From assembly GCA_032622095.1 (NCBI GenBank), contig CP136067.1:127011030-127075029 (forward strand): 64,000 bases of DNA. The letters are read 5' to 3'. Source of the DNA: Siphonodentalium dalli (Eukaryota; Mollusca; Scaphopoda; Gadilida; Siphonodentaliidae). The position numbers and the translations under genes were made by a program. How positions within the stretch are numbered: the first letter of the stretch is position 1; each line of letters opens with the position of its first letter. Below, piece after piece: positions 20,822-62,183 of this stretch. The notes under the pieces are model-generated. The model worked only from the letters and a program-made list of their open reading frames with translations. It searched no databases and was not told where the DNA came from.

Positions 20822-21083
20822 ATGGCGGAACGAGTGATCTACCTGTATGTGCTTCTTCTGTTCTATACTATATGTGTTAACGCGGACAACAGTGGTATTA
20901 AGGAAACAAGGTTTTTGAAAATGGACAATTTTACAGCTGCCAGCCAGTCAGTGGTCCCAGCCAGATCGAATCTCGAAAGTGCTGCATTCTGCTCGATGGA
21001 TGCCAGTTGTTTGTCCTATAAGTTTGAAAATGGTAACTGCCGGAGTTCTACACAAGGAGGGAATGTCTATAAAAGAGTAGGCG
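20822..21083 (+). CDS. exon 1: signal peptide and PAN/apple-like segment of a secreted mucin-lectin
   Basis: This appears to be the first coding exon of a secreted multidomain protein. The start at 20822 has a purine at +4 (ATGG). Residues 1-21 form a signal peptide with a hydrophobic core around residues 5-19 and likely cleavage after Ala21. After a linker, 'CSMDASCLSYKFENGNC' gives three cysteines at residues 57, 63 and 73, in the spacing seen in the first half of PAN/apple modules. The open frame ends at GCG|GTAAGT, a consensus donor at 21084, leaving codon phase 1. That phase matches the acceptors at 35706, 55279 and 61989. I see no TATA box close upstream. PAN assignment is tentative because only part of the fold is present, and an undetected exon could complete it within the 14.6-kb intron. 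Confidence 0.65.
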
Positions 21084-21554
21084 GTAAGTTGAGAACACAA
21101 TAATTACAGGAAATCAGGGTTCGCTCTGCAGATAAATTACATTGGCTAAAATTCTTATTCTGTGTTTGCTAGCATGTAGCATCGATGGTCAAACTGGAAA
21201 GAAAATTTATATATCATTACTGGGTTTACAAAATAAGAACAAAACTAAGTAAAAACAAGCAATTACAAAAATAATTCAAACATGACTGTTAGCTACATGA
21301 GCTGTAGTGTGATTTAAAAATTAACTTACATTTTATCAACCATGAAATACTGTGTCACATCAGGAGTCCAACATTTACAGAGAATTAAGTCCGCGGATAC
21401 CATATCCTCACAAAGGGGATACGAATTATTATTGGTTAAATAATGCGATTCTCGCGGCGATAAATTGGCGAAGTATTGTCAACTGATTCAGATGTAGTGT
21501 AGCATGATATTAAATAATCGTCATTGTTTTGATAGTACAAGAATTTATCACGAT

Positions 21555-21870
21555 AACTCATAATCATCATCCTCGTCATTATCATCACCATCATCATCAT
21601 TATTGACATCAGCACCGCAATTATCATCACCAGCATCACCACCAGCATCATGATATTCATTACCAGCCATATATGTATCATCATAATTATTTCAATAATA
21701 ATCATCATGGTCATCATCATCAATAACATAGTCATCGTAATCACCATAATCATCATCATCACTCGCATCATCATTATCACAATCATCTTCACCATCACCA
21801 CCAACAAGATCATCGTCATTTTCATTGTCATCATCATCACTACAATCATCACCATCGTAATTTTCAACAG
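21555..21870. repeat. TCA/ATC trinucleotide microsatellite
   Basis: Imperfect (ATC)n and (ATT)n with G/C interruptions lie in the first intron of the lectin-like gene. The open frames on both strands are low-complexity and are not genes. Confidence 0.9.
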
Positions 21871-22877
21871 AATATAGAGGGGTATATGCAATTTTTGTGT
21901 CAACAGTGTATATATGATTGGATGTTGCTCTCAAATTTACTATCGGCTCTGCGAGAGATCAGCCTGAGTTCTGAATATGTGTTACCAACCTCATATAAAC
22001 CACTGTCATACTAATTGAGAAGTGTTAATAATAATTATTGTATGAAATATAGCGATTATGTGAGTCAAGCAAACACTTAACCTAGAAAGTTACATTTCTA
22101 GCACAATATACCCATCACAATGGATAATATTTTTTAGAAAATGGCCAAGAACATATCGTTTGGCGAAACTTTGTTTATCCTCCGACCGGAAATATAATTC
22201 CAAAACCTAAACTGAGCATACAAAATAACTAAGTTGATGAAGTAAATCTACTAATTGTCAGAGGGGGCACATGCATTATCAAGCAGGAATGTTTTAATGC
22301 TCCTTGGGTGAATAGACATTTGATACCTTTTTCAAGTGAGTTCCAGATGTGAGGAACAGCAAATGAAAATGTCATGTCACCAAATGTCATTTACCGTTTT
22401 CTCCTGAACAATTAATATAAGACGGTGCCATATTGTTTCTGAATTTATATACCAAAAATAAAATTATGCATATGACACGGTACGAATCTAGCATTCAGTG
22501 TAAAGTCTTCAGCACAGGAGTCATATGCTCAGACCATAGGGTGAAGCACACAACTCAAGCTGAATCATTTACCATTATCTGCAAGCGCTCGTATTGACAA
22601 TGGGGTTCACCATATAGCAGAGAGTTGCAATAATCAAGATGGGATATAACAAATGCATGTATAAGAGTTTATAGGGGAATTGTAATGGTCTATATAAGGG
22701 ATGGTCTAATCTGATGAGTGACACCAATTAATCCCTTGTCTGTCATAATACTGAATGGTAGATGGTGTGTATCGGTATTATTGTAAAATAGCAATGGTGT
22801 GGTTAAAGTCTAAACATGGTATTTGACGGTATGGACAACATTATATAGAATGCAAGATGTTAAATATTACAAAAATA

Positions 22878-23090
22878 TTCATTACACGGAAGGGGCGGAT
22901 TCTAAAGACGAAATGATTCAATCGCAGTTCAAGAATTTTACTCTCGTTGTCAGTATCGGCCTGATTTTGGGGGCACGACCGATCGTTACTGTACTCAACA
23001 TTCTACTCTGATTTTTGAACCACCACCATGTTTGTTGTTTCACTCAATGATGTTGTTTGTCTGTAACCATAATAGTCCAGTAAATGAGGA
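22878..23090. repeat. right arm of the inverted repeat around exon 1
   Basis: It contains 'GGGGCGGATTCTAAAGACGA', 'CACGACCGATCGTTACTG' and 'TCACTCAATGATGTTG', the reverse complement of the arm at 20445-20660, with several substitutions and small gaps. Confidence 0.8.
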
Positions 23091-23199
23091 TTTGGCCAAA
23101 ACGAATTAGAATTGGCAAAAAACATGTTTGGGCCCAGCGTGAACTTTAAGGATGACCCCTTAATCGAAGTATGTGTTTGTGGAAGAATGATCCCTTATT

Positions 23200-24290
23200 C
23201 ACAAGTCGAAAACCGTTTAAGTAACTGGCAGACTGTAACCAGTAACAGTCAGACGGCTCAACATCGTTTAACTAATACCAAGACAGTAACCAATAACGAG
23301 CAGACGACAAAGACGAATGGTATTTTTCACGGGTCACCACCAATGTTTTGCTTTTAATTTGCTAGTTTACCATATAATTAGCCCGTGGTGACAATATGAT
23401 TTTCCGATAGGTTCATGTATTACGATTGATATGTTTTAGTATGGTCGAAATTAGTAGTTATTCGTAATTGAAAAATACATCTTAGTTCTTCTATTACGAT
23501 CATAGTTTTGATGAAACTTAAATCCTCAATGCATAATATATGTCATCTGCCTCGTGGAATTTAATCCAGAAAAAAGACTGTGTGACGTATTCACCTTCCA
23601 CTGACTACTGTATACATATGGCTGTAAATAGAAAACGATAATACAACATGTGGCTGAAAAGCCCATCCTTCAGTTACACTGTTAGAAAAAATAATGTCGT
23701 TTTAACGGTCTGAGACCGCGCAACATCGCTGCCAACATTTGACCATTAAACATACGGCCAGACAGTAGCATGTTCCACGGTATAAAACCGTTTAAGTAAC
23801 TGGCAGACCGTAACCAATAACTGTCAGATCGGTGTATTATTTACGGTTCAGCACCGTTTAATTAATATCAAGACCGCAACTAATAAAGGTCAGACCAATG
23901 GTATTTTTCATGGGTCAAAACCAATTGTTTGCTCTTAATTTGCTAATTTACCATAGAATTAGCCAGGTTCCCATGGTGACAATATGATTTCCCGGTAGGC
24001 ATTACGATTCATATGTTTTTGAATGGTCGAAACTAGTATTATTCGTAACTGAAAAATACATCTTAGTTCTTATGTTACGATCATAGTTTTGATGAAATGT
24101 AATTCCCTCAAAGCATAAAGTGATAGACAATACTTATGAAACTTTGCAGTTTGCAGATGATCAAGCTTGTTATCTGCCTCGTATAATTTAATCCGGAAAA
24201 GGCTGCACACGCGTAATGTGTTCGCCTTTCACTAACTACTGTGTAAATATGGCTGTAAATAAAAAACGATACTAGTAATAGCTGATAAGC
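23200..24290. repeat. direct duplication, ~500-600-bp unit, two copies
   Basis: Copy one (about 23200-23660) and copy two (about 23780-24290) share, in order, 'ACCGTTTAAGTAACTGGCAG', 'AATGGTATTTTTCA.GGGTCA', 'AAAAATACATCTTAGTTCTT' and 'CGATCATAGTTTTGATGAAA'. They differ by scattered substitutions and indels. No coding content was recognised. Confidence 0.75.
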
Positions 24291-25760
24291 CAATCCATCA
24301 CTATTCAGTTATGACTAATACTAATTTCGACAATTCTAAAACATGAATCGGCATGCCCTTTTAAGCCATAAAAAGAACAGAGCTACATGTTTGACAGTTA
24401 AAACTCAAATTTATGCACACGTATAAGTAAAATATCTCAATGGCATACTTTTTGGTAACATGTACGGCGTAAAATTGTCCAGTCACTTGTTAAAACAGTT
24501 TTTGTTTTAACAGGTGAATCCGTACATCATGACAATACAGTACCAGTCAGAAGAAGTGGTATTTTTAGGTGCACCTTTATTGCCATATTGAGCGTGCTTA
24601 ATTTAGAAAAAGGCGTGATTATAGCATACTACCAAAAATCTGTCGCGCTTATTATTGCAATATTGAACGCAAAATATTGCGATACTAAGCGCGCTAAATT
24701 TCAGACACATCCGATAGTGTTATATTTATATTAGATAAATACTGTGCATATATTGTACATATAGAATTTACAACTATAATTATGTACATATCTAAAACAT
24801 TGTCACTATTTATACAATAAACAATATAGAAGAAGCAATAATTTGATTTAAATGTCACAATTTTGAGCGCAAGATGTCGCAATAATAAGCGCAAAATATT
24901 GAGATATTAAGCGCAAAATATTTCAATAATATCACAAGCGAAATTCTTATAAGCGTTTCCACTTGCAATATTATTGCGATATTGGCGCGAAAATAGCGCG
25001 CTTAATATACCATTTCTTTTGACTGATACTGTATATCAATAACAGCTAGTTGGGATTGGAACCTTCAAGACAACAGCAGATCCCATAATAACTGTGCGCA
25101 ATGACTTGGCGACAATGTTCTCCTGAAATTTTAAAGCATGATGCATCAAACGGTATACTGGTATCACAACCACTTAGTATCAATATCAGTGAGTCAGCCA
25201 AAGACAGTTTGATAAGAACATCCAACCAATAGTGCACTCCCGGTAAATTGTCGTAATAACTTGACGATAACATGGCGAATGATGACAAAGTCTCATATCT
25301 ACGCGTTTCAATGAACATTGATGAACACAGGATGAATTGGTCCGTGTAATCGTAAAGTTGGAATTGTAGATATGTGATCATCCGCCACTGCGCGCCGTCA
25401 GTTCATTGTTTACGATGTTTTGTTGACACTGAAGCTCTTTTGAATTACACTGGTGCATACAGTCCTCTTTTGTAAATGTACATGCATGTGCTTTGAAACA
25501 ATCAGATTCAGAACACTGTCAACTGGATTGTCATCATTCTAATAGTAATAGCTGCTCGTTGAGTCGTTGTTGTTATTATTGTCACTTTTGGTTGACATCG
25601 AAGCTTGCGTTAATTGTACCTGTATCCTCTTGTGTCAGTAAATGTGCCAGTGTTTTGATACTAAGTCACAACACTGTCAATTTCAACATCATCACTGAGT
25701 CGAATGGAGTCAGATCGTGCCATGAATCGATTGGCATGAATCTCTGCTCTCTAATTTAGT
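24290..25760. repeat. segmental duplication copy A
   Basis: It shares with 26260-27180, in order, 'CGGCATGCCCTTTTAAG', 'AAAATTGTCCAGTCAC', 'CATCATGACAATA', then on the other side of a MITE 'AACCTTCAAG', 'GACTTGGCGACAA.GTTC', 'GATAAGAACATCCAACCAAT' and the 'TTTTGTTGACACTGAAGCTC' region. On the minus strand both copies can be read with 'HYWLDVLIKLSLADSL', but stops and divergence elsewhere, and no known domain, argue against a working gene. Confidence 0.75.
24538..25031. mobile_element. TA-flanked MITE (mariner/pogo-like) inside copy A
   Basis: The 494-bp element has inverted ends CAGTACCAGTCAGAAGAAG and CAGTATCAGTCAAAAGAAA (read inward) and sits between TA dinucleotides (24536-24537 and 25032-25033). 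The interior repeats AATAAGCGCAAAATATTG-like phrases. The duplicated copy B lacks it and shows a single TA at the same point. There is no transposase. The family is inferred from the TA duplication and the CAGT ends. Confidence 0.85.
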
Positions 25761-26259
25761 TGAAATTGTCAATGATTAAGCCGATTTTCGCAGAATTGAA
25801 ACTTGTCCGGTTATCAAAGGAACCGAAATCAGACGGTCTAAACAACTGTCCACAATGGAAAAGGTTTCCCAAAAAACAAAAATTTGCGATTAAATATGCA
25901 ACGCCAAATCAAAATGGCGAAAACATGATCTTAGTGCTAAAGCGGGAACTTGATACCGAATGAGAATTACGTACTCATCAATAGACGTACCGACCCGATT
26001 AACACAGAATGAATGCCGATATTATATACATATTAAATATCAGCAGAGTAAGATTCAGTCATACTGTATGGAGTCATTGCCGTATATAATATGGTCGCCG
26101 ATAAATATACTATTGAATTTTGACGGCATGACATTGAATCACGAAAATATTTAATTTAGACAATTTGCACGGGCACATAAAATAATGGTAAAACACTGTC
26201 AAACTGATGAAACGGTATGGGACCGTCGATTATGACGGCCCGAACCCGTCGAACCGACA

Positions 26260-27180
26260 GTCATTTCTAACAGTGTACGAGTAATACTAATTGCGACCAT
26301 TCTAACTTGTGAATCGGGCATGCCCTTTTAAGACATAAAGGAAGAAAGATGCGCGTATCATAGTTAAAACTCAAATGTATGTACATGTAAAATTAAACAA
26401 CATCTTAATGGAATACTTTTTGGAAACATATAATCCGTGAAATTGTCCAGTCACCTGGAACCACCGTCTTTGTCTTAACATCACGACAATATATTGGAAA
26501 CAACTTGTTTGGATTGAAACCTTCAAGTCTGTAATAACTATGCGTGATGACTTGGCGACAACGTTCTTCCATAGTCACACATTTTTCGATGAAATTTGAC
26601 AGCGTGATACAAACTGTGTATACTAGTATCAAAACACTTAGCATCCATCTCAGTGAGTCAGCCAACGATAGTTTGATAAGAACATCCAACCAATAGTGCA
26701 CTATCGGTCCGTAAATAGTCGTAGTAACTGGGTGATAACATGACGAATGGCGAAAATGTATCATATCCATACGTTTGAAAGAAATTAACGAACATGGGAT
26801 GAATCTGTCCGTGTAATTGTAATAGTTGTACTCGTAAGTTGGAATTGTATATATAATGGCATCAGTTCATTTTTTACCGTGTTGTTGTCGACTTCGAAGC
26901 TCTTGTGCATTACTCTGGTGTGTACAGTATATCCTCTCGTGTAGATGTACATGTATGTGCTTCGAAACTATCAGAACAATGTCAACTGCATTTAATGGTT
27001 ATGTAAGAATAACTGGCAACAGTGTCAAGATTGTAAAAGTATTAGCTGTTACAGTATGTTGTTGTTGTTATTATCACTTTTGGTTGTCATCGAAGCCCCT
27101 GCGCAATTATCTAACACGTGTACATGTATACTGTTGTGTCAGTACATGCATCTGTGTTTCGATAGTCACAGCACTGTCAA
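26260..27180. repeat. segmental duplication copy B (no MITE)
   Basis: This is the partner of 24290-25760, running through 'ACATCACGACAATATATTGG' without the 494-bp element. The 121-codon minus-strand frame 26405-26770 and 153-codon plus-strand frame 26856-27317 are not recognisable proteins. Confidence 0.75.
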
Positions 27181-27185
27181 TTGCA

Positions 27186-28130
27186 AGTGGGCATACATGT
27201 ATAGCGACAGCTTGTGCCACTAAATTCTCTAACTATACGAAATGTCCTTCAAAATTTGTCAATTTCTTATTTGCCATCCCCAGGATATCTGGAGGTGGTC
27301 AACCGAGGGTCAGCTAGGCACAGTTTTCGGTAGGGCTGGTAGGAATCGTCATTATGTGGGCATATAGCGACAGCTTGTGCCACTAAATACTCCCAACTAT
27401 ACAAACTTTCCTTCAAAATTGGTCGATTTCTTATTTGCCATCCCCCAGGATATCTGGAGGCGGTCAACCGAGGGTCAACTGGGGCCAGTTTTCGGTAAGG
27501 CGGGTAGGAATCGTGATTATGTGGCATATAGCGACAGCTTGTGCTACTAAATACTCTAAGAAATTTCCTTTAAAATGGGTCCAATTCTTATTTGCCATCC
27601 CCCGAGATATATGGAGTGGTCAACAGAGGGTCAACTGGGCCCAGTTTTCGATAAGGCGGATAGGAATCATGACTATGTGGGCATATAGCGACAGCTTGTT
27701 CCTCTAAATACTCTATAAGTATACGAAATTTCCTTCATAATTGGTCGATTTCTTATTTGCCTACCCAATATATCTGGAGTGGTCAACCGAGGGTCAATTA
27801 GGACCAATTTTCGGTAAGGCGGGTAGGAATCGTGATTATTTGGGCATCTACATGTAGCAATAGTTTGTGCCACTAAATACTCGAACTATACTAAATTTCC
27901 TTCAAAATTTGTCGATTTCTTATTTGCCATCCCCGCAAATATCTGGAGGTGGTCAACGGAGTGTCAACCGGGCCCAGTTTTCGGTAAGGCGGATAGGAGT
28001 CGTGATTATGTGGGCATATAGCGACAGCTTGTGCAACTAAATACCCTAACTATACGAAATTTCCTTCAAAATTTGTCGATATGTTAAATAACATCCCCCA
28101 TGATATCTGGATCTGGTCAACCGAGGGTCA
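27186..28130. repeat. tandem array, ~163-bp unit, about six copies
   Basis: 'GGGCATATAGCGACAGCTTG' recurs at about 27194, 27357, 27520, 27680, 27842 and 28012. Each unit continues with 'TCGATTTCTTATTTGCCATC', 'GATATCTGGAGGTGGTCAAC' and 'CAGTTTTCGGTAAGGCGG'. The minus-strand frames with repeated 'SYPPYRKL' and 'DPRLT' are translations of the array. The array ends at a run of G (28136-28149). Confidence 0.9.
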
Positions 28131-29225
28131 ACTACGGGGGGGGGGGGGGTAACAAAACATTTGCAGGAAGGTATGCCGTTTTTTTTGCATCTAGCATTTT
28201 CGGGGACCCACCAGCCGCAAACCTGCAAAAAAAAAAAGTTTTACTCCCAATTTTTGTTACACTCACCCCCCAAATTTCACTAAATTTGATGTAAAACAGC
28301 ATAAAACAATACTGATATCACTCATATGACTGGGCCATGATCTCAATTACTCCAAATAATAGTTTAACCTGTTTCAGAAGCTCTTTTAATTGAACAAGAA
28401 ATGTTTTATAAATTGCTGATAATCTGTAAACCTAGGTCAGTATGCAGGATTCACATAATTCCATAAATTCTAACTATTTCCTGATTAGTCTGTCAACCAG
28501 CTGCAGCCCATTATCTAACATATTCCATACCACCTTTGTTAGTCTACTGGAGCAACTTCTATTTTACCAAACTTGCTGAAACAGGCTGCCTTCGGAAGCC
28601 TACATTCAGCGTCGGTGAGACATGTGGTCCCCTTTGTGGGACTTCCGATACATTTTGATATTAGACGGAGCCGTTATTCAGCGGCGGCCGCTTTGTGCGC
28701 TTCAAACACATTTTGATAGTTGAAACATTTTGATTTATATATATCGTTTTAAATAAAAAATTTGTTAGATTTAACTCCTTGCACAATTTAACAAAACCAA
28801 TTTTATTTTATTTTTTTAATTCAAAATTTTGAAGAAAAAAACTAACGCCGTTATAACATCCGCCAGGGTACCCCGAGTCACCACACCAAATTTGGTTGAA
28901 CTCGCGTTCTGACAGGGGTCTGACCGAAAAATCCCGAGAGATCCTACTAATTTATATATATAGGTGACAGGCAGTCACAGTACAATACCAGGCTTGGATA
29001 ATTTAGGTCTTGTGTGAGATCATCTGAGTTGATAGAGATGCAAATAGTTCACTGATTAGCTTGATGCACTGATGGCAGTTATATTCTAGTCACACAATGT
29101 CTTTAGTAAAAAATTTGCACGAGGTTGTAAAAAACGTGTTTTTGCCCCTCGTGTCACCCACCCACCGGCATACATTCCTGAAAAATTGTTATTACCCCCC
29201 CCCCCCCTACCCTTGATTGACAACA
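28115..29225. repeat. inverted terminal-like pair flanking ~0.8 kb
   Basis: At 28115-28260 'GGTCAACTACGGG' plus poly-G is followed by 'GCAGGAAGGTATGCCG' and an A-rich stretch. At 29095-29225 the same order appears in reverse complement ('CCGGCATACATTCCTG', poly-C, 'TACCCTTGATTGAC'). It could be an element with degenerate inverted ends or two insertions in opposite orientation. The interior has no recognised gene. Confidence 0.5.
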
Positions 29226-29399
29226 TAGTTGTCATGGTCTTCCATTTATTCTCATAATCATCGTCACCGTCATGGTCATCATCATACAATCCAGGCATAG
29301 TCATAATAATAATAATAATCATAATAATAATAATAACTAGAATGTTAAAATTATGGCCTGCAGAATTTTGATACTTCCATGCATATTTCCCATCCCCAA

Positions 29400-29745
29400 T
29401 CCCCATCTAACCATTAACCCTCTACCCATCCCTATCCAAACATTATACATAAACCACTCCATAACCCTAATATTTAGATAAGTACAAACTTAATCGTAGC
29501 CAATCAATAATCATAATACTTTGCATAGCCCTATCCACAGCACTAAGCCCTAACCCAATAAAATACCCTGATCATATTCATTACATCCCTGCAAACCATA
29601 TACATTGCCATAACTCTTTCGATAAGCCTTGTCATACATACAAGCCTAACCAGAACCAAATCCTTTGCATAAACCCGATCCTACCCATAACCTTAAACCT
29701 AAACATAAACTTGATCTACACGTAACTGTAACCCTGTCCTTAAAC
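29400..29745. repeat. degenerate CCNTAACC-like tract, G-poor
   Basis: Phrases such as 'CCATTAACCCTC', 'CCATAACCCTAATA', 'AGCCCTAACCCA', 'CTACCCATAACC' and 'TGTAACCCTGTCC' recur irregularly. The + strand is strikingly poor in G. It is telomere-like in style but too irregular to be called a telomeric array. Confidence 0.5.
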
Positions 29746-30044
29746 TAAAATGTGCATTATCTCTTTGTAAACATGTATCATACAGTTATCGGTGTACAAA
29801 ATATTAGATATGAGTCGAAGACTCCTGTTCGGAAATGCTTCTATCGGTTAATATTTATTTTATTTTGAATACCTTCTGGTCTAAACAGGTGTGGTTGTTT
29901 AGCTAACGAACAATCATGGTTACTTTTACCAGTGACCAGACATTTTGTTGTGTAGTTTTGTAAAACCATGGAAGTATAATAATAAATAATAATGGACAAA
30001 AATAAATAATTCAATATCAATATACTTACATGGTAAAACCATGG

Positions 30045-31350
30045 AAGTATAATTATCATCATCATCATTAGCATCACCATCATCGCCAGCATCACCATCA
30101 TCGTCACCATCATCTGCATCAGCAACAACAGCATGACCGTTAGCATTTTGATATAATCCTAATTATAGTAACAATAATAATCATCATCATCGTGGCCATC
30201 ACCACCATTACCATCCTCGTCATAATATTCGTCGTCGGTAACATCATAATCACCGCCGACACCATCATTATCATCGTTATCATCATCATTAGATTCATCA
30301 GAATATTCACCATCATTATCTCCAGCATTATCATAATAATAATCATCATCATCATCATCGTCATCGTCATCATTATCATCACCATCAGTATCGCCAGCGT
30401 TACCATAATCATCATCATCGTCATCATCATCATTAACATCATCGTAATTAAAATCAGTATCGCCATCAGCACCAACATCATCACCACCATCATCACCATA
30501 TATATTATTATCACCATAATTATAATCATCATCATCGTCGTCGTCGTCAGCATCATCATCATCTCATCATCATCAGCATTACCACCACCATGTGCATTAT
30601 TATCAGCATCATTATCGCCATCATCATCATCATCATCATCGTCATCATCTTCATTATTATTATTATCGTCATCATCGTCATCATCATCATCGCATTGTCA
30701 TCATCATCATAAACATGATCATACTTATCAATATCATCGTCATCGTCGCCACCATGACAATCGTCGTCACCATCAATGTCATCATCATGATCACCGTCAT
30801 CATCATCATCGCCATAATTAGCATCGTCATCATTATCATCGTCACCATCACAATCGTCACCATCGCCATCGTCGTCGTCGTCATCATCAGTAATCAACAT
30901 CGCCATCATCATCAGCATCGTCATCATCAGCATCGTCATCATTATCATCGTCATCATCATGATCATCATCATTATAATTATGAACATAATTAGTATTATC
31001 GTCATAATCTCCACCATCATCGCCGTCATCATCATCGTCGTCGTCGACACCACCATCATCGTCATTATCGTCATTGCCGTTGTCGTCGTCGTCACCACCA
31101 TCATCATTATCATCATTGTCATCATCATCTGAACGTCATAAATATCATCATCACTAACATCGTAATCTCCATCATTATCATCATCACTATGATAACTGGC
31201 ATCGTCATCCCTAGCATCATCATTATTATCATAATCATAATCATCATCATCATCATTATCATCACCATCATCATCATCCTCATCATCATTCTAATTATTA
31301 TCGTCGTCAACATCCTCACCATTATTATCATCATTATCATAATTATCAAG
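30045..31350. repeat. long TCA/ATC trinucleotide microsatellite
   Basis: About 1.3 kb of imperfect (TCA)n with CGT/ATT/ACC interruptions. All six frames stay open for long stretches, giving spurious frames up to 209 codons of Ile/His/Ser or Met/Asp. None is called as a gene. It lies in the first intron of the lectin-like gene. Confidence 0.95.
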
Positions 31351-31359
31351 ACAGGTACT

Positions 31360-32600
31360 CTGATGAACCAAACATTGAGGTGCTATGCATAGTACGTAGA
31401 TATTTGGTACTACAGAGGACCAACTATATAGGTACTATGTGGAGAACATGGCCAGGTACTAAGCACTCTAAATTACGGAAAATGTCCGACGGCAAATTTA
31501 ACAATGTGGTATGTTAGATTCCAAATGATGCCACGGCGTTTAGACATCGAATTAAGTACAAAACCCCGGTCATACTTGATATCGGTGTCAATTACAATTA
31601 CAACTGGCACAGTTCATAGCAAGACTAATTACGATAATTAATAATTGTATAATCAGTAAACGTTCGTTTCAAATCTTACAACTTTCATAAAACAAATTCC
31701 ACTAACATTTCAGCCTGACACATCTATACTCTAAAAGTAGACATGCCATTGATATATAAATCATTCTCATGTCGTGTTTAGCCTTTCCCAAATTTCGCGA
31801 CCATTTTATTCGACCAAAGGAATCTGACCGGGTGTGAAAACAGCGAGGGTTGGGGAGGGTTAGGGTTAACAAAATAATATGTATCGGAGTTTGGAGTGTG
31901 GCATATTATCAAGATATCATTGCAGTTTGTTCGAGTGAGTGTGTCTGTGGTGCGTCTGATTTCAAGAATGTACAAATATCTTAATATTTGGGAAATAACA
32001 TTGATAATGAAGTCCATAAATACAATTCATCTACTGACTGTATGATAACATTTCACATTAAGGTATGCAATTATGTATTTGGTAGCAACATCTCTCTGTT
32101 TTTCAATTTCCAGGAGCAAATCAAGCCACATACTGACCTAGTTGTGCGTAATAATATATAGTGTAAACAATATTTTATTTCTCCAGTAGGCACATAACTG
32201 CAAATATAACATACACAAAAAGACATAAGAGATAAAGGAATCTGGCAGTAATCCTAGGCTTATTCGTGGCCATTTCCGCGATACTAATTGCTTCATAATG
32301 TTTTGGTCTCGAGTGATGAATTGTCCGCTCCACTAACACCCGCGAGCATATCCGTGACTGATCGCTGCATGTCCGACCCCCGCATTACATAATTTTGCTG
32401 TGAGAGCGCTCTTATTTGTTTTTACTACTTTTTTGATGAGATATGTATATCAGTTAGTGATGGTACTCAGTTAAATCGTTTGGTTCTGTTTATGAACTTT
32501 TGGAGTGACATGAACATGACTGAATTTTCACTGCACGTTACGTTAACCGATCCATTAACAAAGTGTTCACAGTTAGTGTCATATTAGGACCCACAACACA
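31360..32600. other. unassigned intron sequence
   Basis: No exon or repeat was recognised. The part nearest 32600 could be the 3' untranslated end of the minus-strand LINE that follows. Confidence 0.4.
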
Positions 32601-32608
32601 GTGATCTC

Positions 32609-35420
32609 TCACTTTTTCTTTTTGTAAAACGGACAATGAAGTAAAACATGTTCGGCGGTCTCCAGTTCCGCACAATCGCAGAATGGATTATTATTTAGGT
32701 GATTACAAAACAGGTCATATTTCAAGTTACTGCAATAGGTTCTCAGACGACAGTGGTAGATTTTACTTGCTCTTGTAAACGTTACGTAACGATATGACGG
32801 TATAGTATTACGATCTCTAGATATATATCTCTTGCATTCTGAAAATGAGTGGAAGGCTGTTCCATATTTTGCGGTAGTTGGCAGGAATGAATTTTCATAT
32901 CTTGTCACAAGAAAACGGGGCCACTTGAGGCCTTTTTGTCTGAAGTCGTAATCAGTTTGGCTTCCAGATACCGGAGGGACAATTGTATATAAGTAAGGAG
33001 GCGTGTCTCGCGTAAGCATTTTGAATAATTGAATAAGTTAACTTTTTCTCTTCTGCTCGAAAGTGTGTCCCAGTCGGTTTCTCGTAATAACGATTCCTTA
33101 CTACCGCTTCTAGGCTTCGTATTGGATGTTTCCAGATGTTTTGAATCCTCATCTGTACATTCATCCCACATTGAGGAAGCATATTCCATTACTGGATGGA
33201 TGTATGATAAGTATATTCGTTCCAGAGTTCCCCTGTCCAAAATGAATTTATACTTCCTCAGTATATACAGTCGACTTGCAGCTAGATTTTCAATATCAGT
33301 TATATGATAATGCCAGGTACCATCCCCACTAAAAGTTAGACCAACGTGCTTATGTGTTTCAATTTCTTCAACATTCTGCCCATCTAAAGTGGTGGGTGGT
33401 CGATTTGGTTTAACATGATATCAGAAGTGTCTCTGCTTTGATGGGATTGAATTTAACTTGCCATTTTTTCGACCACTCGAATATCAACCTGATGTCGTTG
33501 TTAATAACTTCTACGACCAACATGGGGTCATCAGTCGAAAGATATACATCTAGATACGTGTCGTCAGCAGAAAGCCTTATATTGCTCGTCACATTTTCTA
33601 CAATGTCGATAATGTAGACGAAAAATAAAAGAGGGCCAAGTATGATAGCTGGGGCCCACCAGCTGAGACACACTTCCAGCTTCAATTGGAACTTGAAACA
33701 ATTACTCGCTGCTATCTATTATCTAAATACTTTTCCAGAAGATCGTATGTGGCGCCGATATTTCCAATATTTTTGAGTTTAAACATAAGGCCGCGATGCC
33801 ATACCTTATCAAAGCCTTGCTAACATCGGAAATCAAACTTCTAACGTCTTTAACGCTACGCTACCAAATGAAGATATTATGTAATGATAGACGTCAGTTA
33901 ACTGAACGACTGTGCTGTCATGATAGTGACTGAAGATTTGTTAGGTTTTGAGGCAGTTATTCATGTGAGAGTAGATACGTTTTTCGAAAATTTATGACAA
34001 ACAACAGAGTAAATAAACTGGGCAATAATTAGAGGGTTCACTAGAGTCGTCTTTCTTATAAATGGGACACACATTTGCATTTTTCCATTCGGATGGGAAG
34101 AATGATTTTCCAATTAGTTCATTTAAACCAAATGTCAGTGGGCCAGCTAGGGAGGATGTGCAGCGTTTCAATATTCGTGGGCTCCTTTCATCGGGACCAC
34201 TAACTTTCGCCGATTCTACACTTATGAGTGGATTATGTTTTATATACAAAGGGTGGTAAGTCAATTATGTTTTCATTGGGAAGAGATTATATCGAAGCGA
34301 AATAATTATTAAACATCTCAACTTTCGACGCGTTATCATAGAAGTGCTAGTATACTTTTGTATCGGGGTCCTTCAGTAGGTTTATAGTCTTCCACCAGAG
34401 AGACGATTCAGTAAGGCAGTGTTTTTAGTACAGACCGGGTTTATGTTTTGCTTGACAGTCTTCTTATGCACGATAAAACATCGTTTCTCTTAGTCTTATA
34501 TTTTGCCAAATCTTTGTCGTTTTTCTTTCGTTTTTGCATTTGAATAAAGGCGACGTCTTCGAATTTGGCATGTCATCCAGGTGGGCTCATCGTATCGTAT
34601 ACTAGTAGCAATTGTGTTCGTTATGTTTTGAAGCTAATTTCGATAATTTCTTTGTAGGAGGTGTACTTCATATTCGTGTGTAGTCTATTTTAGACAGATC
34701 CAATTTATAGTTCCATTGTTCGAGTTCGTTGTTCATTGCAGTAAAGTCTGCAGCATCGTAGTTCCAGACTCTCCGTTTGATGGACACGACTCGATTTTAC
34801 TTTATTTAAACTTAATGTTACTATTATGGGACAGTGCAGGCGAGTCACCTCAACCAAAAAAGTATCTAAAACTTTCCATGATTCGACAAGATGTAGTTTA
34901 TTTGTCATAAATAAGTCAAGGAGAGAGAGGTCTCGGTAAAATATGTCTGGTCTTTGATAATTTGTTTTAATCCAAGTTTCTGTCGAATATATCTTGCCGT
35001 TGTTGTCTCTTTTTCTAAAACATTGGAGTTAAAATGTCCAGTGACCACCACCTGTAATAGGATTGTGTCGTTCGTTGACATATCGATCGATGACAATATA
35101 TTTTTCCAAAAACAGGTTGGCGACTCGTATTCCATAAAAAAGTGCCAAGCAAAAATTGTTCTGGTGTGGGGGTTTACTACCTCAATCCATGCACATTATA
35201 TACCGGTTATTTCTAAGTCCCTGCGTCATTTAAAATATAGTGAGTTAGATACATATACAGCGATACCACTTCCATGATATGTACGGTTAAGTCTCTCGGG
35301 TGCGTAGACACCAGGAATAAGAATTTCGGAGTCTTGTATTTCGTCTGTAACAACATTTCTTCGTATTCCCAGGTGGACGGTAAGACATACAGTGGTACAC
35401 AAATAAAAACATCACACATT
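32609..35420 (-). mobile_element. decayed non-LTR retrotransposon (L2/CR1/Jockey-like), antisense in the intron
   Basis: Reading the minus strand gives the domains in order. Endonuclease pieces lie at about 35420-34700 ('HPRDLTVH', 'VVVTGHFNSN', 'ETSLSLTYL'). RT N-terminal motifs are at 34264-33992 ('GPDERSPRILKRC', 'FPSEWKNANVCPIYKK'). The RT core is at 33685-33410 ('ILGPLLFFVYIIDI', and 'SADDTYL' where the catalytic [FY]xDD lies, near 33561-33570). A C-terminal tail follows at 33240-32609 ('YIHPVMEYASSMWDECT', 'LRTYCSNLKYDLF', 'NPFCDCAELETAEHVLLHCP'). Frame changes and stops separate these parts, so it is inactive. It lies antisense to the lectin-like gene. The clade is inferred from motif style only. 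Confidence 0.85.
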
Positions 35421-35529
35421 TGTCAATATTTGTCAATTCCCCATCGGATATTCACATGGGTGATTACTGGTTTACCATTAATATACAATTGAGCTGTGTT
35501 TTGACTGCCTTCTATTAATGGCTCTATAT

Positions 35530-36100
35530 AGCGTCCTGTCTGCCAGCCCATCATTACTTATATAGCCCCCCATGGAGCCGTTTAAGATGAAAAGAGTTTT
35601 TCTCTCAATTAATCGGGAATCTGTTTGTCAGTAGAATAGATGTCTGTACTCTTGCGAATATATCAACACCCTGATCTATTGGTAATGACTGTGATAATTT
35701 AATAGCAATACCAGCAGTAACACCAGCACCAGCGACACCACCAGCAATAACAACATCAGCACCAACAACTACAACAATAACAACACCACCAGTAGCGACA
35801 ACGCCATCAGCAGCAACATCACCAGCAGCAACGACATCATCAGTATCAATAACACTAGCGGCAGCAACAGCAACATCATCAACAACACCCCAAGCAACAA
35901 CACCAGCAGCAGTAACAACACCAGCAGCAGCAACACCAGTAGCAAGAACAACACATACAACAACGACGACCACAACAACCACAACAACGAAATCGGTGAC
36001 TAAACCGCGTAAGTGTGTTTAATGGTATGGTTTATTGGTTGAGAGTAAGATAACCACAAAAAGCACATAGCACAGCGCAAAAACACAATTGTAAGAATAG
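35530..36100. repeat. duplicated exon-plus-intron segment, copy 1
   Basis: The intron before the exon ('GGAGCCGTTTAAGATGA', 'AATCTGTTTGTCAGTAGAAT', 'CTGATCTATTGGTAATGAC') and after it ('GTATGGTTTATTGGTTGAG') matches the flanks of the second Thr-rich exon at about 55110-56420. The exon was therefore copied with its splice context. Confidence 0.8.
35706..36008 (+). CDS. internal exon: Thr/Ala/Pro-rich mucin-like stalk (first)
   Basis: The exon is bounded by a likely acceptor ('ATTTAATAG', AG at 35704-35705) and a consensus donor C|GTAAGT (GT at 36009-36010). It is 303 nt, phase 1 at both ends, and has no stop in the joined frame. The roughly 100 residues are mostly Thr, Ala, Pro and Ser, with motifs such as 'TPAPATPPA' and a run of ten Thr near the end, closing with 'KSVTKP'. 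This is the composition of O-glycosylated stalks. There are no cysteines. The acceptor has a poor pyrimidine tract and nearby in-frame CAG sites, so the start may shift by a few codons. Long hydrophobic minus-strand frames here are artefacts of the codon pattern. Expression is not proven. Confidence 0.6.
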
Positions 36101-37514: not shown

Positions 37515-39330
37515 TTGTTAAACTGTATAATCTGCATTGAAGTCACCTTATTAACCCTTTCTATATTACAGCACCATTGGCGTGTAGTTACCTTATTAAC
37601 CATTCTATATTAAATCATTAATTGACAGGTAGTTACCTTATTAACCCTTTCTATACTAAGTAACATTGGTGAGTAGTTACATTATTAACCCTTTCTATAT
37701 TAAAGCACCATTGATGTGAAGTTACCTTATTAACCCTTTCTTTATTAAAGCATCATTGACGCGTAGTTACCTTATTAACCCTTTCTATATTAAAATATCA
37801 TTGATGTGTAGTTACAATGTTAACCCTTTCTATAGTATAGCATCATTGGCGGGTAGTTGGCTCCTTAACTGTGTATATACCAAAGTATCATTGTCGTATA
37901 TAGTTACCTTATTAACCCTTTCTATACTAAGTACCGTTGGCGTGTAGTTGCCTTATTAACCCTTTCTATATTAAAGCATTAATTGACAGGTAGTTACCTT
38001 ATTAACCCTTTCTATACTAAGTATCATTGGTGAGTAGTTGCATTATTAACCCTTTCTATATTAAAGCGCCATTGGCGGGTAGTTACCTTATTAACCATTT
38101 ATGTATTAAAGCATCATTGACGTGTAGTTACCTTATTATAACCCTCTCTATATTAAAGCATCATTATTGCTGGGTAGTTATCTTATTAACCCGTTCTATA
38201 CTAAGTATCATTGGTGAGTAGTTACAGTATTAACCCTTTCTATATTAAAGCATCATTGACGTGAAGTTACCTTATTAACCATTTCTGTATTAAAGCAGCA
38301 TTGACATGTAGTTGTTAACCCTTTCTATATTAAAGCATCGTTGGCGGGTAGTTGCCTAATTAACCCTCTATATACTAAAGTATCATTGTCGTGTAGTTAC
38401 CTTACCAACCCTTTCTATACTAAGTATCATTGGCGTGTAGTTACCTTATTAACCTTTTCTATATTAAAGCATTAATTGACAGGTAGTTACATTAAACAAC
38501 CCTTTCTATACTAAGTATCATTGGTGAGTAGTTACATTATAAACCATTTCTATATTAAAGCGCCATTGACGGGTAATTACCTTATTAACCATTTTTGTAT
38601 CAAAGCATCATTGACGTGCAGTTACCATATTATAACACTTTCTATATTAAAGCATCATTGACTGATAGTTACCATATTAACCCTTTCTATATTAAAGCAC
38701 CATTGGCGTGTAATTACCTTATTAACCCTTTCTACGTTGAAGCAATAATTGACAGGCAGTTACCTTATTAACCCTTTTTATAATGAGTATCATTGGTGAT
38801 TAGTTACATTATTAACCCTTTCTACAATAAAGCATCATTGACATGTAGTTATCATAGTAGCCAGTTATATATTAAAGCATCATGGACGGTAGTTACCATA
38901 TTAACCCTTTCTATATTAAAGCACCATTGGCGTGTAATTACCATATTAACCCTTTCTATATTAAAACATCATTGACGTGTAGTTACCCTATTAGCCCTTT
39001 CTATATTTAAGCATCATTGACGTGTAGAACTTTATCTTATTAACCCTTTCTTTATTAAAGCATCATTGACATGTAGTTACCTTAGTAACCATTTCTACAC
39101 TAAAGCATTATTGACGGGTAGTTACCTTATTAACCCTTTCTATATTAAAGCATCATTGACAAGAAGTTAAATTATTAACCTTCTATAATAAGTATCATTG
39201 CCGTGTAGTTAGTTACCTTATAAAACCTTTCTATATTAAGACGTCGATCATTGACGGGTAGTTGTTACCTTATTAATCATTTATGTATTCAAGCATCATT
39301 GACGAGTAGTTACCTTATTACTTGAAGTTT
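37515..39330. repeat. tandem array, ~45-bp unit, about 40 copies
   Basis: The consensus runs 'GTAGTTACCTTATTAACCC', 'TTTCTATATTAAAGCATCAT', 'TGACGT', with single-base changes and small indels between units. It lies in the intron between the two Thr-rich exons. The frames inside translate the unit. Confidence 0.95.
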
Positions 39331-52720: not shown

Positions 52721-52909
52721 TGATACTGTTACAATGCACGCCTGTACCTTGGTCGCCTTCGCGTTTTGTCTCGGGGAAAAAATATTCAATATATATATAA
52801 ATTTCGATTGAGAAAAGGCTTTTTCAATGCAGAATTGTTGGATCAACACACATGTCCTTTGTTTGAAGAGCGTGAATTAGGTAGACAAGGTTAATGACAC
52901 AGAGGGCTG

Positions 52910-55109: not shown

Positions 55110-56420
55110 ACCCATCAGCGCTTATATAGGATCCCACATCGAGCCGTTTAATATGACAAGTGTTGCCACATAGTTGATAATATAATGTTTCTTTCAATTA
55201 GTCGCGAATCTGTTTGTCAGTAGAATATATCAATGTTCTGATCTATTGGTAATTGCTCTGATACGTTAATAACAACAGCAACAACAACAGCAGCACCAGC
55301 AACAGCAGCAACAACAACGACAACACCAGCATCAACAACAGCAGTGACAATGCCATCAGTAGCAACAACACCAGCAGCAACAACACCAGCACCAACAACA
55401 TCACCGGCAGCAACTACAGCAAAAACAACAACAACACCATCAGCAACAACAACATCACCAGCAGCAACAACAACAACAGGAGCAACAACACCAGCACAAA
55501 CACCAACACCGGCAGCAACTACGACAACATCAACTACGACGACAACATCAACTACGACGACAACAGCAACAACGACGACAACAGCAACAACGACGACAAC
55601 ATCAACTACGACGACAACAGCAACAACGACGACAACAGCAACAACGACGACAACATCAACTACGACGACGACATCAACAACGACGACAACAGCAACAACG
55701 ATGACAACATCAACTACGACGACGACATCAACTACGACGACAACATCAACTACGACGACAACATCAACTACGACGACGACATCAACTATGACAACAACAT
55801 CAACTACGACGACAACATCAACTACGACGACAACATCAACTACGACGACGACATCAACTATGACAACAACATCAACTACGACGACAACATCAACTACGAC
55901 GACAACATCAACTACGACGACAACATCAACTACGACGACAACATCAACTACGACGACAACATCAACTACGACGACAACATCAACTACGACGACAACATCA
56001 ACTACGACGACAACATCAACTACGACGACAACATCAACAACGACAACAACATCAACTACGACGACGACATCAACAACGACAACAGCATCAACTACGACGA
56101 CAACATCAACTACGACGACAACATCAACTACGACGACAACATCAACTACGACGACGACATCAACTATGACGACAACATCAACTACGACGACAACTTCAAC
56201 AACGACGACAGCGACATTGACGACTAAACCACGTAAGTTTTATCAATATTCGCAATCGCTGGCAAACTGTGATAAGCAAATTGCTCCAACTTATAGGCAG
56301 AATAAAGTCATTTGGGCTGGAAAATCTCTAAGGTCGTGATTAGCGTCAAAATAGTTGTATGGTTTATTGGTTGAGAGTAAAATGAAAGAAAAAAAACCAC
56401 ATACCACAATGAACATTTCG
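55110..56420. repeat. duplicated exon-plus-intron segment, copy 2
   Basis: The upstream intron ('GAGCCGTTTAATATGAC', 'AATCTGTTTGTCAGTAGAAT', 'CTGATCTATTGGTAATTG') and downstream intron ('GTATGGTTTATTGGTTGAG', 'CCACATACCACA') match the surroundings of the exon at 35706-36008, 19.6 kb away. Copy 2 has about 100 extra bases just after the donor and a much longer exon. Confidence 0.8.
55279..56232 (+). CDS. internal exon: long Thr-rich mucin repeat domain (second)
   Basis: The exon is 954 nt, phase 1 at both ends, with no stop. The likely acceptor AG is at 55277-55278; in-frame CAG alternatives a few codons downstream are equally possible. The donor is C|GTAAGT with GT at 56233-56234. The first ~80 residues are Thr/Ala/Pro mixed ('TTPAPTTSPAATT'). 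About 38 hexapeptide units (S/A)TTTTT follow, from roughly 55530 to 56200, coded by an 18-bp unit TCAACTACGACGACAACA with Met or Ala variants. The exon closes 'TTKP', like the 35706 exon ('KSVTKP'). Such dense Thr runs should be heavily O-glycosylated and extended, making a stalk between the N-terminal module and the lectin. Copy number is probably variable. Confidence 0.7.
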
Positions 56421-58320
56421 TTTGATATACAATGTCATGTAACCTTACTTCCATCCACTGTGTAGGAACTGTTACATCGGAAGTCGTTCTATCGCCGGTA
56501 TTGTGATGGTTCTTGCCTGATTTGTTACGGTTCCTGATTATTGAAAATAATCATTTTTGTGACAAAATCACGCATAATTATAGATATCTTGAATATATTA
56601 TACTTTCCTGAATGAACAGAGGTTGCAGAAGTGCCGTGTTATCGAAACCTGAACTCTAGACCACAATTAACTGGGTATTAGCTAGTTAACGCGTAAATAT
56701 CAACATGTTATCACTGAAAATCAAGCCACGTGGACCTAATTTCTTTGTTTTTCGTGGCGTATAAAATATGAAACGCATTCTGAAGAAAAACATGTTATTC
56801 TTCTGTAAATAGCTGAGAAAGTATCCCCATAGGGGTTGATAACTGGGAGCTGTGGCCTCGTAATCAAAACGGGTGCGTGTTACGGTTCTATTTCAAACCA
56901 ATCACGATTGTGACGGTTCTGTACATGAGATTTATTCGAACGATTTCTGCACTTTGGTCCGAAAATCGTCTTGTGTATCTGACATTTTAAACCAGATAAT
57001 GACTGTAATTTGCATAATAGAACAGGTATATTAAGAAATAACACAATACATACCTAATACGGGAGAATAGTGACATTAATAGGCAGAAATAATATATTGA
57101 AAGTCCCGATGAGTATAGTATCATAATCATGCCCGCCTATATAAATGGCCAATGGCAATATAAATCTACTGTCAGGAGAATATGATATGTTATATTCATT
57201 TACTTAATCTGGGCATTATTGAAAGATCCAGGTGTGACAATATTTCAATGCCAGCACCATCACATTTCCTCCTCTGAAGTCCGCCTGAGGGACATTTATA
57301 CATGTTTGTCGCCCAGACATGAATATAACTTATGACATCACGTTCAACTGAATCATTGATAGGTTATGACGTGATTGGGGTGGTGGTGGGACTTGGGGAG
57401 GGGGTGCTTAATTGGTGTCTATCCCCAACTTTGGTCAAAATGTTCAACAGTTACAAATGTCTTATCTTACAATAGATTGGTTTGAAATTGAACACCAACA
57501 ATATGTTGAAATTGTTCTCTTAGTTTGATTTGACAACAATTTAATAGTGGGGAATTTGTCGTTTTTAGACCAACATTTGCACACTTTCCTACACTTTAAA
57601 CATGTAATCAACCATATTTGACATATATACAAATGGACACCTCTTCTTTAGAGTTGATCCAAAACTCATGATGGGTAGACAGGAAGTAGGGAGCATGTGT
57701 GATCTAGTTTTCTATATCACATTTACCCCCCCCCCCCCCCCCCCCCGAAATTGGCAAGAAACTGGTCAATAGACAAATACTCTCATTCCATTTAATTAAT
57801 ATGCTTTTTTATTAAATAATGTATGCTCTTTTGCAAAATAAATCATCTCTCTCTCCATCTGTTGGGAACATTTCCAATCTTGTGGGGGTGGGGGCGCCAG
57901 GTTGGAAACTTCCAACTCTTGTGAGTCTTGAAGCCAATCTAGAAGATTTTTGCAATTTTCAGGTTCAGATATCCACATTTTCTCACTGGGCCCATGTATC
58001 CTGAGTTTCTCCCCCGGTTTCATGGTGGCAAACAAAATGCTACTAATCAATTCACTTCAGAATTGCATACAATCTAGAGCTATAATGTGTCATGCAGTTG
58101 GGAAAAACCAAAGCCCAGGCCTTGTGCACGAGTTTGGTCTTTTTCAAGGGGATGATGCGGTTGGAAATTCCAAGGTGGACGCCCCAACATTGGAGAACCT
58201 CCAGCCCTCATCCCTGTTCACTTGACACGTTATCAGCGAGGAATAATAATGTGCCTTAGAATAGCCAGGTTCAGATACCCATAACACCGATTTCTAATGA
58301 TTCATTTGTATGAATGTTTA
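56421..58320. other. unassigned intron; poly-C run at 57726-57746
   Basis: No exon was recognised. A run of 21 C stands at 57726-57746. Opposed frames at 57796-58225 show no domain. Confidence 0.45.
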
Positions 58321-58359
58321 GCTAATAATTCAAACAACCTGTTACTGAATGTTGAATTT

Positions 58360-58650
58360 AATAGCTGAGCATTCCTACAAATGAATCAATAGGATTCAAG
58401 TCGCTGCTCATTACAGCACATTTAGTCACCAAAGGATTAACATCCATATAATAATATTTGTAACTGATTGATTCTTTTCTCTTTTTTGTTATATGTTACT
58501 GCTTGTTGAACTTGATAGATAAAGCATTCCTACACTACACATTAATCAATAGGATTCAAGTCAATTCTCATTACAGCGCATTTAGTAACCAAAAGTTTAA
58601 CATCCATATAATAATATTTGTAACTGTAGGATTCTTTGCTTTTTATATCT
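58360..58650. repeat. two-copy direct repeat, ~157-bp spacing
   Basis: 'AATCAATAGGATTCAAGTC', 'CTCATTACAGC.CATTTAGT' and 'AACATCCATATAATAATATT' plus 'TGTAACTG' occur at about 58383 and again at about 58543. Confidence 0.8.
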
Positions 58651-58879
58651 TCTATTAAAAAATCAGAGATCCCTAGTCATTCTGAAAAATGATTGAATGA
58701 AAGGTTATCGTGCTTGTATGTGCTTTAATAGCTGCATATTCTAGAATTCTAGAATTTAACCTAGATAATCAGCATCCACCAAGCGGATGCCCGACATTAA
58801 CTTCATAAACTGCGTAATCAGAACATTGTATGGGTGTCAACGAACTTTTAACGTCTTATTTTTGTTGAGTAAAATAGGT

Positions 58880-59310
58880 CTACGAAAATAGACAACACTA
58901 GCAGATGTGCCCCCTCTTCGTCCATGCTATTTAGGGATTTATTTGTGATCGTCTCCGCCTGGACAAACTATTGTTAAATCGGCCCGGAAACATGCCTATA
59001 TGAGCGAATATGGTCAAGGTCAAGGACATGGTCGCTCGTGAAATTGGACCTACCCATATTGTTCCCGGGATCAAAGTAGGCCTACATTATACTAAAGTTG
59101 AGTCGGATCGGTCGAGGTCCAGAAACATGCCTATATGAGCGTATATATGAGCGAGGTCAAGATCAAGGACACGGTCGCAAGTGAAATTGAACCCGCCCAT
59201 ATTTTTCCCCGGATCAAAGTAGGCCAACATACCAAATTTGAGTAGGATCGGTCGAGCAGTTTTTCGAGTCTATAACACAAATACATACATACAGACAGAA
59301 GTTCCAAACT
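58880..59310 (+). mobile_element. RTE-like LINE/SINE 3' tail, partly duplicated
   Basis: 'ACATGCCTATATGAGCG', 'GGTCAAG.TCAAGGACA.GGTC' and 'CC..GGATCAAAGTAGGCC' occur twice (about 58990-59080 and 59120-59230). Then come 'GGATCGGTCGAGCAGTTTTT' and a tail of (CATA)n ending 'CAGACAGAAGTTCC'. The end is shared with the tails at 6296-7520. Such ends are typical of RTE-type LINEs and dependent SINEs. Confidence 0.65.
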
Positions 59311-61988
59311 ATATAATAGATACAATACAAGACAGATAACTCTATATATCCCGTAACGCTCACGCTTTCCGAAGATTACACAGGTGTAAATGTTTTCCAT
59401 AGGCCTCAGTGCTAACGTTTTAGCGTATACTATTGGCAATATAAATATTGGGTCCAAAAAAAAATTAAAATCTGAAAAATTGACACTTTGGGAAACTTTT
59501 TGCACAAAAAATTCAGGTACGACAGGCAGGGAATTCGCTTTTAAATCTTGTGTTTTCCTAACTAGTGTCAGAACCGCATAAAAAATACTGTCATATTTTA
59601 GACCACAACAAACAATTCAAACTTCACTACAGAGGGTTAATTCCTGTGTCAATGGCTATTTTACCAGTGGGAAACCATAGGGAAGGGGTGTGCTGATTTT
59701 TTTAATGCAAAAAGCACACAAGGCTATTGACCAATCGGGGCCCAGTGTCTATTTTATTCTCTCCTATATATTCCTCCCGCATCCACTGCTAGAGGTCTCT
59801 CCGAACCTTATTTACACCAGTGTAACCCGAAGTCCAGCGCTATGAAATTTCACTATTGTTAACCGGCTATTGACTCATGGAAATGTTGGGCCTGCAAAAC
59901 GCGTTATCTTTCAAACTAGCTAGCCACTTTGTGAATTTTGATAGGCGTAACACAGCTTTATTGGTTAAACATAGAAAGGCAGTGTAATTCATCGAAATTA
60001 ATGACAAGTGGTGCAAATTTGAACTTAATGCATAGTATGTTGTGTTTATCTTTGTATACTATCACAAAATTGAACCATGTACCATGGTAAATATTAGCCA
60101 TAGTTTTACCCGTATAGAACGATTAAATGGGGAGAGAACCGACGACGAAAGAGTGTGTCGTCTTCAAATAGGAGGAGTACCCCCGTATAAATATCCTATT
60201 TGACAGCGACCCAATTATCCTGCTGGTTTGCCGCAACGCGAGAAATATACGAAGTATAAAATCACTGCTGTGGTCGCCTCGTGGTCAGCTATTCAATCGC
60301 TTGCCGTGTGAATATAAAACTCGCGCGCTTTGAATTGCTGCGGACGACAGAAAACGGCCGTTATAATCGCGCGCTCGCGCCCGGTGTGAATCGACCCTTA
60401 GACGTCAACATTGATATGGACAGCAGTAAACGTTGAATTGAGATAAACAGTCCGCGATACGTTAACGGGCGGGTGGGTCTTGGAAACTATTAACCGGCTG
60501 GTTGGTCCAGGAAATTTCATTGGTCGAGTAAAACGGCAAGCGAACAAGTTGAATGTTCCACAGAATATGACGACAAATTGGTCATCAAACTGCACAACAG
60601 AAATGCAGCGCATCTATTCCATCGATATTGCAGAACACGTGCGTGTTCTTAGATGGAGCACCAGCAGACAGACTATAGTATTCCATACGTTAGGCACGTG
60701 TTCTTGTCCTGAAGTAGATCGATCCAATATAGCTGTGTTAGGACATTATTAAGCTAGAATTAGACAACTTAATCACCACCCCGGCATCCGGATATGTCTA
60801 CGGTGGTGGATATATATATATAGCAGTATGTGGGACAGTGAGTGCTCCTCGTTGGTTACCAATTTGTCAGAAGGACACGTGGCAGTGGTGCACGGTCACG
60901 TTAATATGTATATCGAGTATGTTTCTAGAGGAATCCTATAATGGCACAATGAGGTGCCCCTCAACTCAGATCAAGCTGGAAAATCTGTCCCGAATTTCGC
61001 CCATGTCGGCCATTGTGGGGGTTTGAACCAGTGCCTCCTCGTACCCGGTCAAATACAACACAGTTAAATATTCTACACCCTCCCAGAAAATGCAAGATAG
61101 CTGTCACGAACATCCCGCTCTAACGTACATGTATATCAACAATTAGCGCTGAGTTCACAATTCATCTTGATATTTGTGCTTAAAGGTTACCTCAGTGGTC
61201 GGGAGACACATACATAACTGCGAACTTGAATAGGCCGTTATGATGGCGAACCTCGTATCGACACAATGGGGTAATCCGGTGACTTTTAAGTGAGATAAAC
61301 CAGCAAAGGAATTGAGTAATTCTGTAAAATTATGTAATTATGCTCACTCGAACATTATGTGGCCGAGTTCATAAGCTCCTCGTGGTTTATCCGTCACATA
61401 AATTATAGATGCATTTATAAAGCAACGCGTGATACCTATTAACCAATTTCAAACAAGATAAATTGTGTCGCAAGGTTTATCAGGGTTATAGAACTTTCCA
61501 ATGACGGCATTTTTTGTATTTCTAAATTCGTTTCCATGGTAACATATATTTATCATGGTATTTTTGGAATTTTTATCCAAATTTATTTTAAGGTCACGTC
61601 CGATACCATCATATTATTCATGTAAATTATTACTGTTGCCAATGAGGTATACAATAAATGTTCCAATTTCAAATTATCGCATTTTTGGCAAAAATAAGTA
61701 ATTTTCACCCCAAAATGGCAATAAAAAACCTTATAACCTATATTATGTGTATCCTATTTAATACTGAAATAGTTGGAACATAGTTATAGTGGACAAATCA
61801 TGAACACATTATCTTAATCGTCTGTTCCTGTCCTAGAATGGGATTAAAATAGTTTTTACCATTTCATATGATATATAATTTTTCCGTGTGTAAAAAAAAA
61901 ACATAACAAAACAAATTCTACCCAAGACCAAGACCGTTCCTATATTAACCATACTCACGTCAGCTAATAATGTTACGTTTCCATACAG
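59311..61988. other. unassigned intron sequence
   Basis: No exon was recognised; the 124-codon minus-strand frame 59131-59505 includes the repeat tail. 'CGCGCGCTCGCGCCCGGTGT' plus 'GAATCGACCCTTA' near 60370-60400 resembles a hAT-type element end in reverse orientation, but no partner end was found. Confidence 0.4.
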
Positions 61989-62183
61989 CTTGCCCGGTGA
62001 TTGATGGTTACGAGATACGTCAGATGGGTGCACAACAGTATTGTGTCAAACACGATGGCGTGGAGAAGACGTGGGCTGACGCTGTCGCGGATTGCGCCGT
62101 CAATGATGCACACCTCCTTGTTTTGGAAAATCAAGCCATGTTCGATGCCGTGGATGAACTGTTGGCGGAACATGGTAGCGATC
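61989..62183 (+). CDS. exon: N-terminal half of a C-type lectin-like domain
   Basis: The exon has a good acceptor ('TTACGTTTCCATACAG', AG at 61987-61988) and a donor C|GTGAGT (GT at 62184-62185). It is 195 nt and phase 1 at both ends, so it continues the frame of the Thr-rich exon. After the split codon it begins 'CPVIDGYEI', with Cys at 1, 18 and 35, 'KTWADAVADC' (Trp28 to Cys35), then 'DAHLLVLENQAMFDAVDELL'. This is the first half of a long-form C-type lectin fold: the extra N-terminal Cys, the W..A...C helix and the L(L/V) strand. The sugar- and calcium-binding half (WIGL, EPN/QPD, WND) is not present by 64000, so the gene continues off the window and ligand specificity cannot be told. Confidence 0.8.

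Follow-up and report, generated by a model that had tools for sequence, protein, structure and literature searches.

Snail lectins of the FREP, CREP and GREP types are secreted proteins in which an N-terminal module is joined to a C-terminal recognition domain, and they form an expanded family; the family described here appears to be built likewise. CREPs have immunoglobulin domains, whereas the present family has a PAN-type head and a mucin-like stalk instead. The stalk resembles mucins and mucin-like glycoproteins in its Thr-rich tandem repeat, 93% of which is Thr/Ala/Ser/Pro, but the protein shows no mucin polymerization domains and its repeat lies between the PAN head and a C-type lectin-like domain (CTLD). 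Its head shares with PAN/apple proteins (PAN_1, PAN_4) the core E-C-x3-C-x5-C plus a fourth cysteine, and differs from them in being a short single domain that, in the copy analyzed here, is without the first core cysteine. Secreted invertebrate CTLD proteins, which are expanded in bivalves (PMC10140915), share with it the PF00059 signature, a WIG motif, the six cysteines of the long form, a putative signal peptide and family expansion; compared to these, it adds the PAN head and the stalk, which is about 419 residues long, and is without the EPN/QPD and WND motifs of the sugar site. The CTLD, PAN and mucin-like parts are thus each familiar, and the gene product is best read as a secreted bridging protein of a lineage-expanded PAN–mucin–CTLD family, probably a recognition or mucus protein and not something entirely new. 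No named family with this order was found in the open-licence literature, and the sequence-only reading that preceded this analysis had known of none.

The window is a stretch of 64,000 nucleotides from the scaphopod Siphonodentalium dalli (G000:C7:127011030-127075029), and positions are given on its scale unless marked otherwise; the genome searched was a 2.23-Gb animal assembly in nine sequences. By direct reading and translation, exon 1 starts with the ATG at 20822, the GT donors of exons 1 to 4 lie at 21084, 36009, 56233 and 62184, the AG acceptors sit immediately before 35706, 55279 and 61989, and internal exons 2, 3 and 4 measure 303, 954 and 195 nt. The coordinates, donors, acceptors and exon lengths proposed in the sequence-only reading were therefore correct to the base. 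Its proposal that all junctions are phase 1 held as well, with AG/GT borders throughout and a frame free of internal stops across joined exons 1 to 4; for exons 2 and 3 as bounded, the phase-1 frame was the sole open frame. It had also asked for a second lectin exon further right. With a profile of 20 lectin second-half exons taken from this assembly, we searched the window and 40 kb to its right and obtained a match on the correct strand 2.7 kb past exon 4, with an E value of 0.00018 compared to 1.2 for the next-best match. This exon 5 has a phase-1 acceptor, continues in phase and ends with ICQLW-TAG. The resulting five-exon coding sequence is 1,929 nt long and encodes 642 amino acids (643 codons, the sole stop being terminal), and the full model of the previous copy in the array has 644 codons and a single terminal stop. 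Features are listed in Table 1.

Table 1. Features in and next to the window (window positions, except where the assembly position is added)
Feature	Position	Strand	Evidence
Upstream part of ~84-kb segmental duplication unit	1..20243	.	99.83% identity to 83753-104000
Exon 1: PAN-type head preceded by a signal peptide judged by eye (MAERVIYLYVLLLFYTICVNA); phase-1 end	20822..21083	+	Translation; 25 genome matches
Intron 1, largely duplicated in adjacent gene copies	21084..35705	+	
Exon 2: stalk of 101 codons rich in Thr/Ala/Pro, phase 1-1	35706..36008	+	Translation; paralogues
Exon 3: Thr-rich stalk, 318 codons, phase 1-1	55279..56232	+	Translation; 18-bp repeat
Exon 4: first half of C-type lectin-like domain (L1)	61989..62183	+	Lectin_C 18 bits alone
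Exon 5: second lectin half, outside window	64868-65082 (G000:C7:127075897-127076111)	+	Profile search

Exon 3 has no single clear acceptor, since at least six in-phase AGs are available (exon starts at 55279, 55291, 55294, 55300, 55306 and 55309); these alternatives alter only the length of the stalk. A long stop-free frame was rejected as proof of coding, as other frames of the Thr repeat are open too, one running 321 codons on the plus strand and another 340 codons on the minus strand. Openness of the repeat is thus uninformative, and the case for one gene rests on comparative evidence. Within the introns, a long degenerate CAT-type repeat at 30263-31348 (intron 1) has long open frames on both strands and is probably non-coding, and a 45-bp satellite of about 39 copies occupies 37541-39320 (intron 2). 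Three long intronic frames gave no match when scanned against Pfam.

Counting itself, exon 1 matched 25 places in the genome. Searches with exons 1 (E1) and 4 (L1) showed that on the plus strand of C7, between 126.88 and 127.16 Mb, the two alternate strictly over four genes: E1 at 126883948, L1 at 126921504, E1 at 126958035, L1 at 126989263, E1 at 127031851 (the window gene), L1 at 127073020, E1 at 127115608 and L1 at 127158495. One extra L1 lies to the left of this run at 126839599, and more relatives form a block on the minus strand further left (126.32-126.70 Mb), in which the order is less regular. We read five genes: the window gene, its two neighbors and two diverged genes. In all five, Thr-rich exons with AG/GT borders and phase 1 precede L1 on the same strand, and in all four for which the head exon was covered they come after it. 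That order, strand, borders and phase are all conserved across paralogous loci goes beyond chance, and together with the finding of the last exon it supports the single gene put forward in the sequence-only reading. In the same cluster, an L1 relative (G000:C7:126414800-126418600, minus strand) contains two stop codons while its second lectin exon is well kept, with EPN present, and is likely a pseudogene. A "lectin-like" minus-strand pattern near window position 1862 was dismissed as a chance pattern with a broken frame.

Related loci were found on other chromosomes. A minus-strand gene at C2:119.12 Mb encodes a PAN head in one open frame with a Thr-rich stalk, followed by both CTLD halves and the ending FICQLY-stop, all within about 7.3 kb. 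The locus at C1:5.24 Mb has a PAN exon and, after it, the two CTLD halves, and no Thr exon was detected between these parts at the threshold used, indicating that the stalk is variable and not universal. Because it recurs on C1 and C2, the PAN and CTLD combination is probably older than the C7 cluster. The sequence-only reading had suggested that the gene was assembled at this locus by exon shuffling; what we saw instead was tandem gene duplication and duplication of a Thr exon, the domain combination being apparently older. Further PAN-head exons of the wider family, seven or more, form another cluster at G000:C9:32.37-32.96 Mb.

The stalk is 63% Thr, and exon 3 consists mostly of an 18-bp repeat in about 38 copies, so that the encoded segment has the long Thr/Ser/Pro-rich tandem repeat expected of a mucin-like stalk. 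Exons 2 and 3 and their 5' flanks are homologous (72% over 400 bp), from which we conclude that the two exons are duplicates of each other. The 3' intron flank of exon 2 had nine genome matches, all within the C7 cluster; the notion that a dispersed repeat carries the Thr exons was consequently rejected. Phase-1 Thr exons in the paralogues support the Thr-rich stalk proposed earlier, the length of which ranged from about 60 to more than 400 residues among the genes read.

The head was aligned across 17 relatives, including the window copy, and showed a four-cysteine core in which the fourth cysteine follows about 10 residues after the other three; Arg-Ser, Glu and Gly positions were shared. 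With a match limit of E 5, 15 of the 17 relatives matched PAN_4 and PAN_1 (best E values, 1.5e-5 and 6.8e-5), and by these matches the head of the family is a PAN-type domain. The window's own exon 1 did not match the PAN models. In this copy, Ser stands in place of the first core cysteine and Arg in place of the conserved Trp that follows the fourth, and three cysteines remain in the mature part of the head, while the head of the left neighbor keeps the core cysteine and has Arg in the Trp position. The cysteine-rich, possibly PAN-like head of the sequence-only reading is thus borne out by the relatives, but the window copy itself has lost one core cysteine and goes unmatched. A single-sequence AlphaFold model of the head was uninformative (pLDDT, 44), and a PDB sequence search with a single head sequence gave no match. 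Microneme proteins matched weakly in a PDB search with the head profile (E 0.4-0.5) and were not relied on.

Joined exons 4 and 5 scored 39.8 bits against Lectin_C, well above the cut-off of 22.6, and covered profile positions 2 to 106 of 107. They also matched solved CTLD structures, such as that of the macrophage mannose receptor. The significant match, the six cysteines and a WIGL-type motif (WIGG) place the predicted protein in the C-type lectin-like domain superfamily. EPN/QPD and WND, which are present in other CTLDs of the same genome, were sought in the window protein and were absent, with SEPA and GAAEC in their place. Since these motifs are missing, a classical Ca2+-dependent lectin is unlikely, and "lectin" names the fold rather than a demonstrated activity; of the lectin proposed earlier, the C-type lectin-like fold is supported and a sugar-binding activity is not. 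The protein's N terminus is hydrophobic, as judged by eye, and the stop codon follows directly after the CTLD, leaving no room for a transmembrane segment beyond it.

Window positions 20244-34230 are 99.56% identical to the next copy, and intron 1 is 97 to 98% identical in blocks to that of the previous copy. Gene copies overall are 97 to 99.7% alike in blocks that are interrupted by large insertions and deletions. The repetition of positions 1-20243 at a distance of 84 kb to the right could reflect a recent segmental duplication or a duplication in the assembly. When the window gene was compared to its paralogues by Nei-Gojobori counts, the dN/dS of the head was approximately 0.1 to 0.3 against most of them, and that of the lectin halves was mostly 0.2 to 0.6 with a larger absolute dN than in the head; the numbers are small, and a few comparisons between paralogues gave a dN/dS of about 1. 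This pattern fits a conserved head and a faster-changing tail, which falls short of proof, and gene conversion may keep the heads similar.

Taken together, these results make it quite likely that the window contains most of a tandemly arrayed gene with five exons, encoding a predicted secreted protein of about 642 amino acids with a PAN-type head, a Thr-rich stalk and a CTLD tail. We weighed this against the possibility that splicing removes the Thr tracts as intronic minisatellites and joins PAN directly to the CTLD in frame, or that the stalk is present in some isoforms only. Such an arrangement would account for the long open frames, which come free with the repeat, for the weak pyrimidine tracts at the acceptors of exons 2 and 3 in the window gene and for the relative on C1 that pairs PAN with a CTLD. 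However, it is quite unlikely when set against the AG/GT-bordered, phase-1 Thr exons of five genes, the good acceptors that precede them in three diverged ones and the C2 gene, in which the stalk shares the open frame of the PAN head. The long introns (14 to 19 kb) might also be taken to mean that the head and Thr exons make up one gene and the lectin exons a separate neighboring gene; the alternation of E1 and L1 on one strand across the plus-strand array, the matching phases and the order kept within the compact C2 gene make this very improbable.

It is also unlikely, if somewhat less so, that the window copy is a duplicate in decay or without function, or in part a false duplication of the assembly. 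The Cys-to-Ser and Trp-to-Arg changes at head positions conserved in the family speak for decay, the identities between copies (99.83%, 99.74% and 99.56%) are in the range of alleles, and the next copy seems incomplete: its L1 is diverged and its second lectin exon was not found, suggesting that some copies may be decayed. Against this, the window copy retains its full frame with no disabling mutation, and purifying selection is seen on the head in diverged copies. The large indels that separate the copies, and the neighbor in which the first Thr exon occurs twice and the second is different, argue against false duplication for the array as a whole.

For the five-exon gene, the composition and domains of the predicted protein suggest how it might act. 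The signal peptide would direct secretion, and the stalk, presumably heavily O-glycosylated, would be extended and stiff and would space the head from the CTLD. The PAN head may serve as an anchor by binding other proteins or glycans or by oligomerizing, and the diversified CTLD, which is without the classical Ca2+/sugar motif, may bind targets through a non-classical surface, so that the protein could bridge targets to mucus or cell surfaces. With every internal exon in phase 1-1, duplication, loss or skipping of a stalk exon leaves the frame intact, which would allow the copies to differ in the length of their stalks. The protein may plausibly act in mucus or in immune recognition, as the sequence-only reading had proposed. 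A further and less probable possibility is a lineage-specific family of secreted PAN–mucin–CTLD proteins in which phase-1 stalk exons are duplicated, lost and possibly alternatively spliced, such that changes in stalk reach and in target binding by a rapidly changing CTLD are uncoupled from the conserved PAN anchor, yielding a modular invertebrate recognition repertoire.

An exon chain read from raw sequence across 41 kb thus probably represents a real gene within a young, still-duplicating cluster. The C7 paralogues provide a clear set for asking if the stalk changes in length independently of the CTLD sequence, and arrays of near-identical copies with presumably glycosylated stalks of variable length may be one source of variable recognition or mucus proteins in invertebrates.
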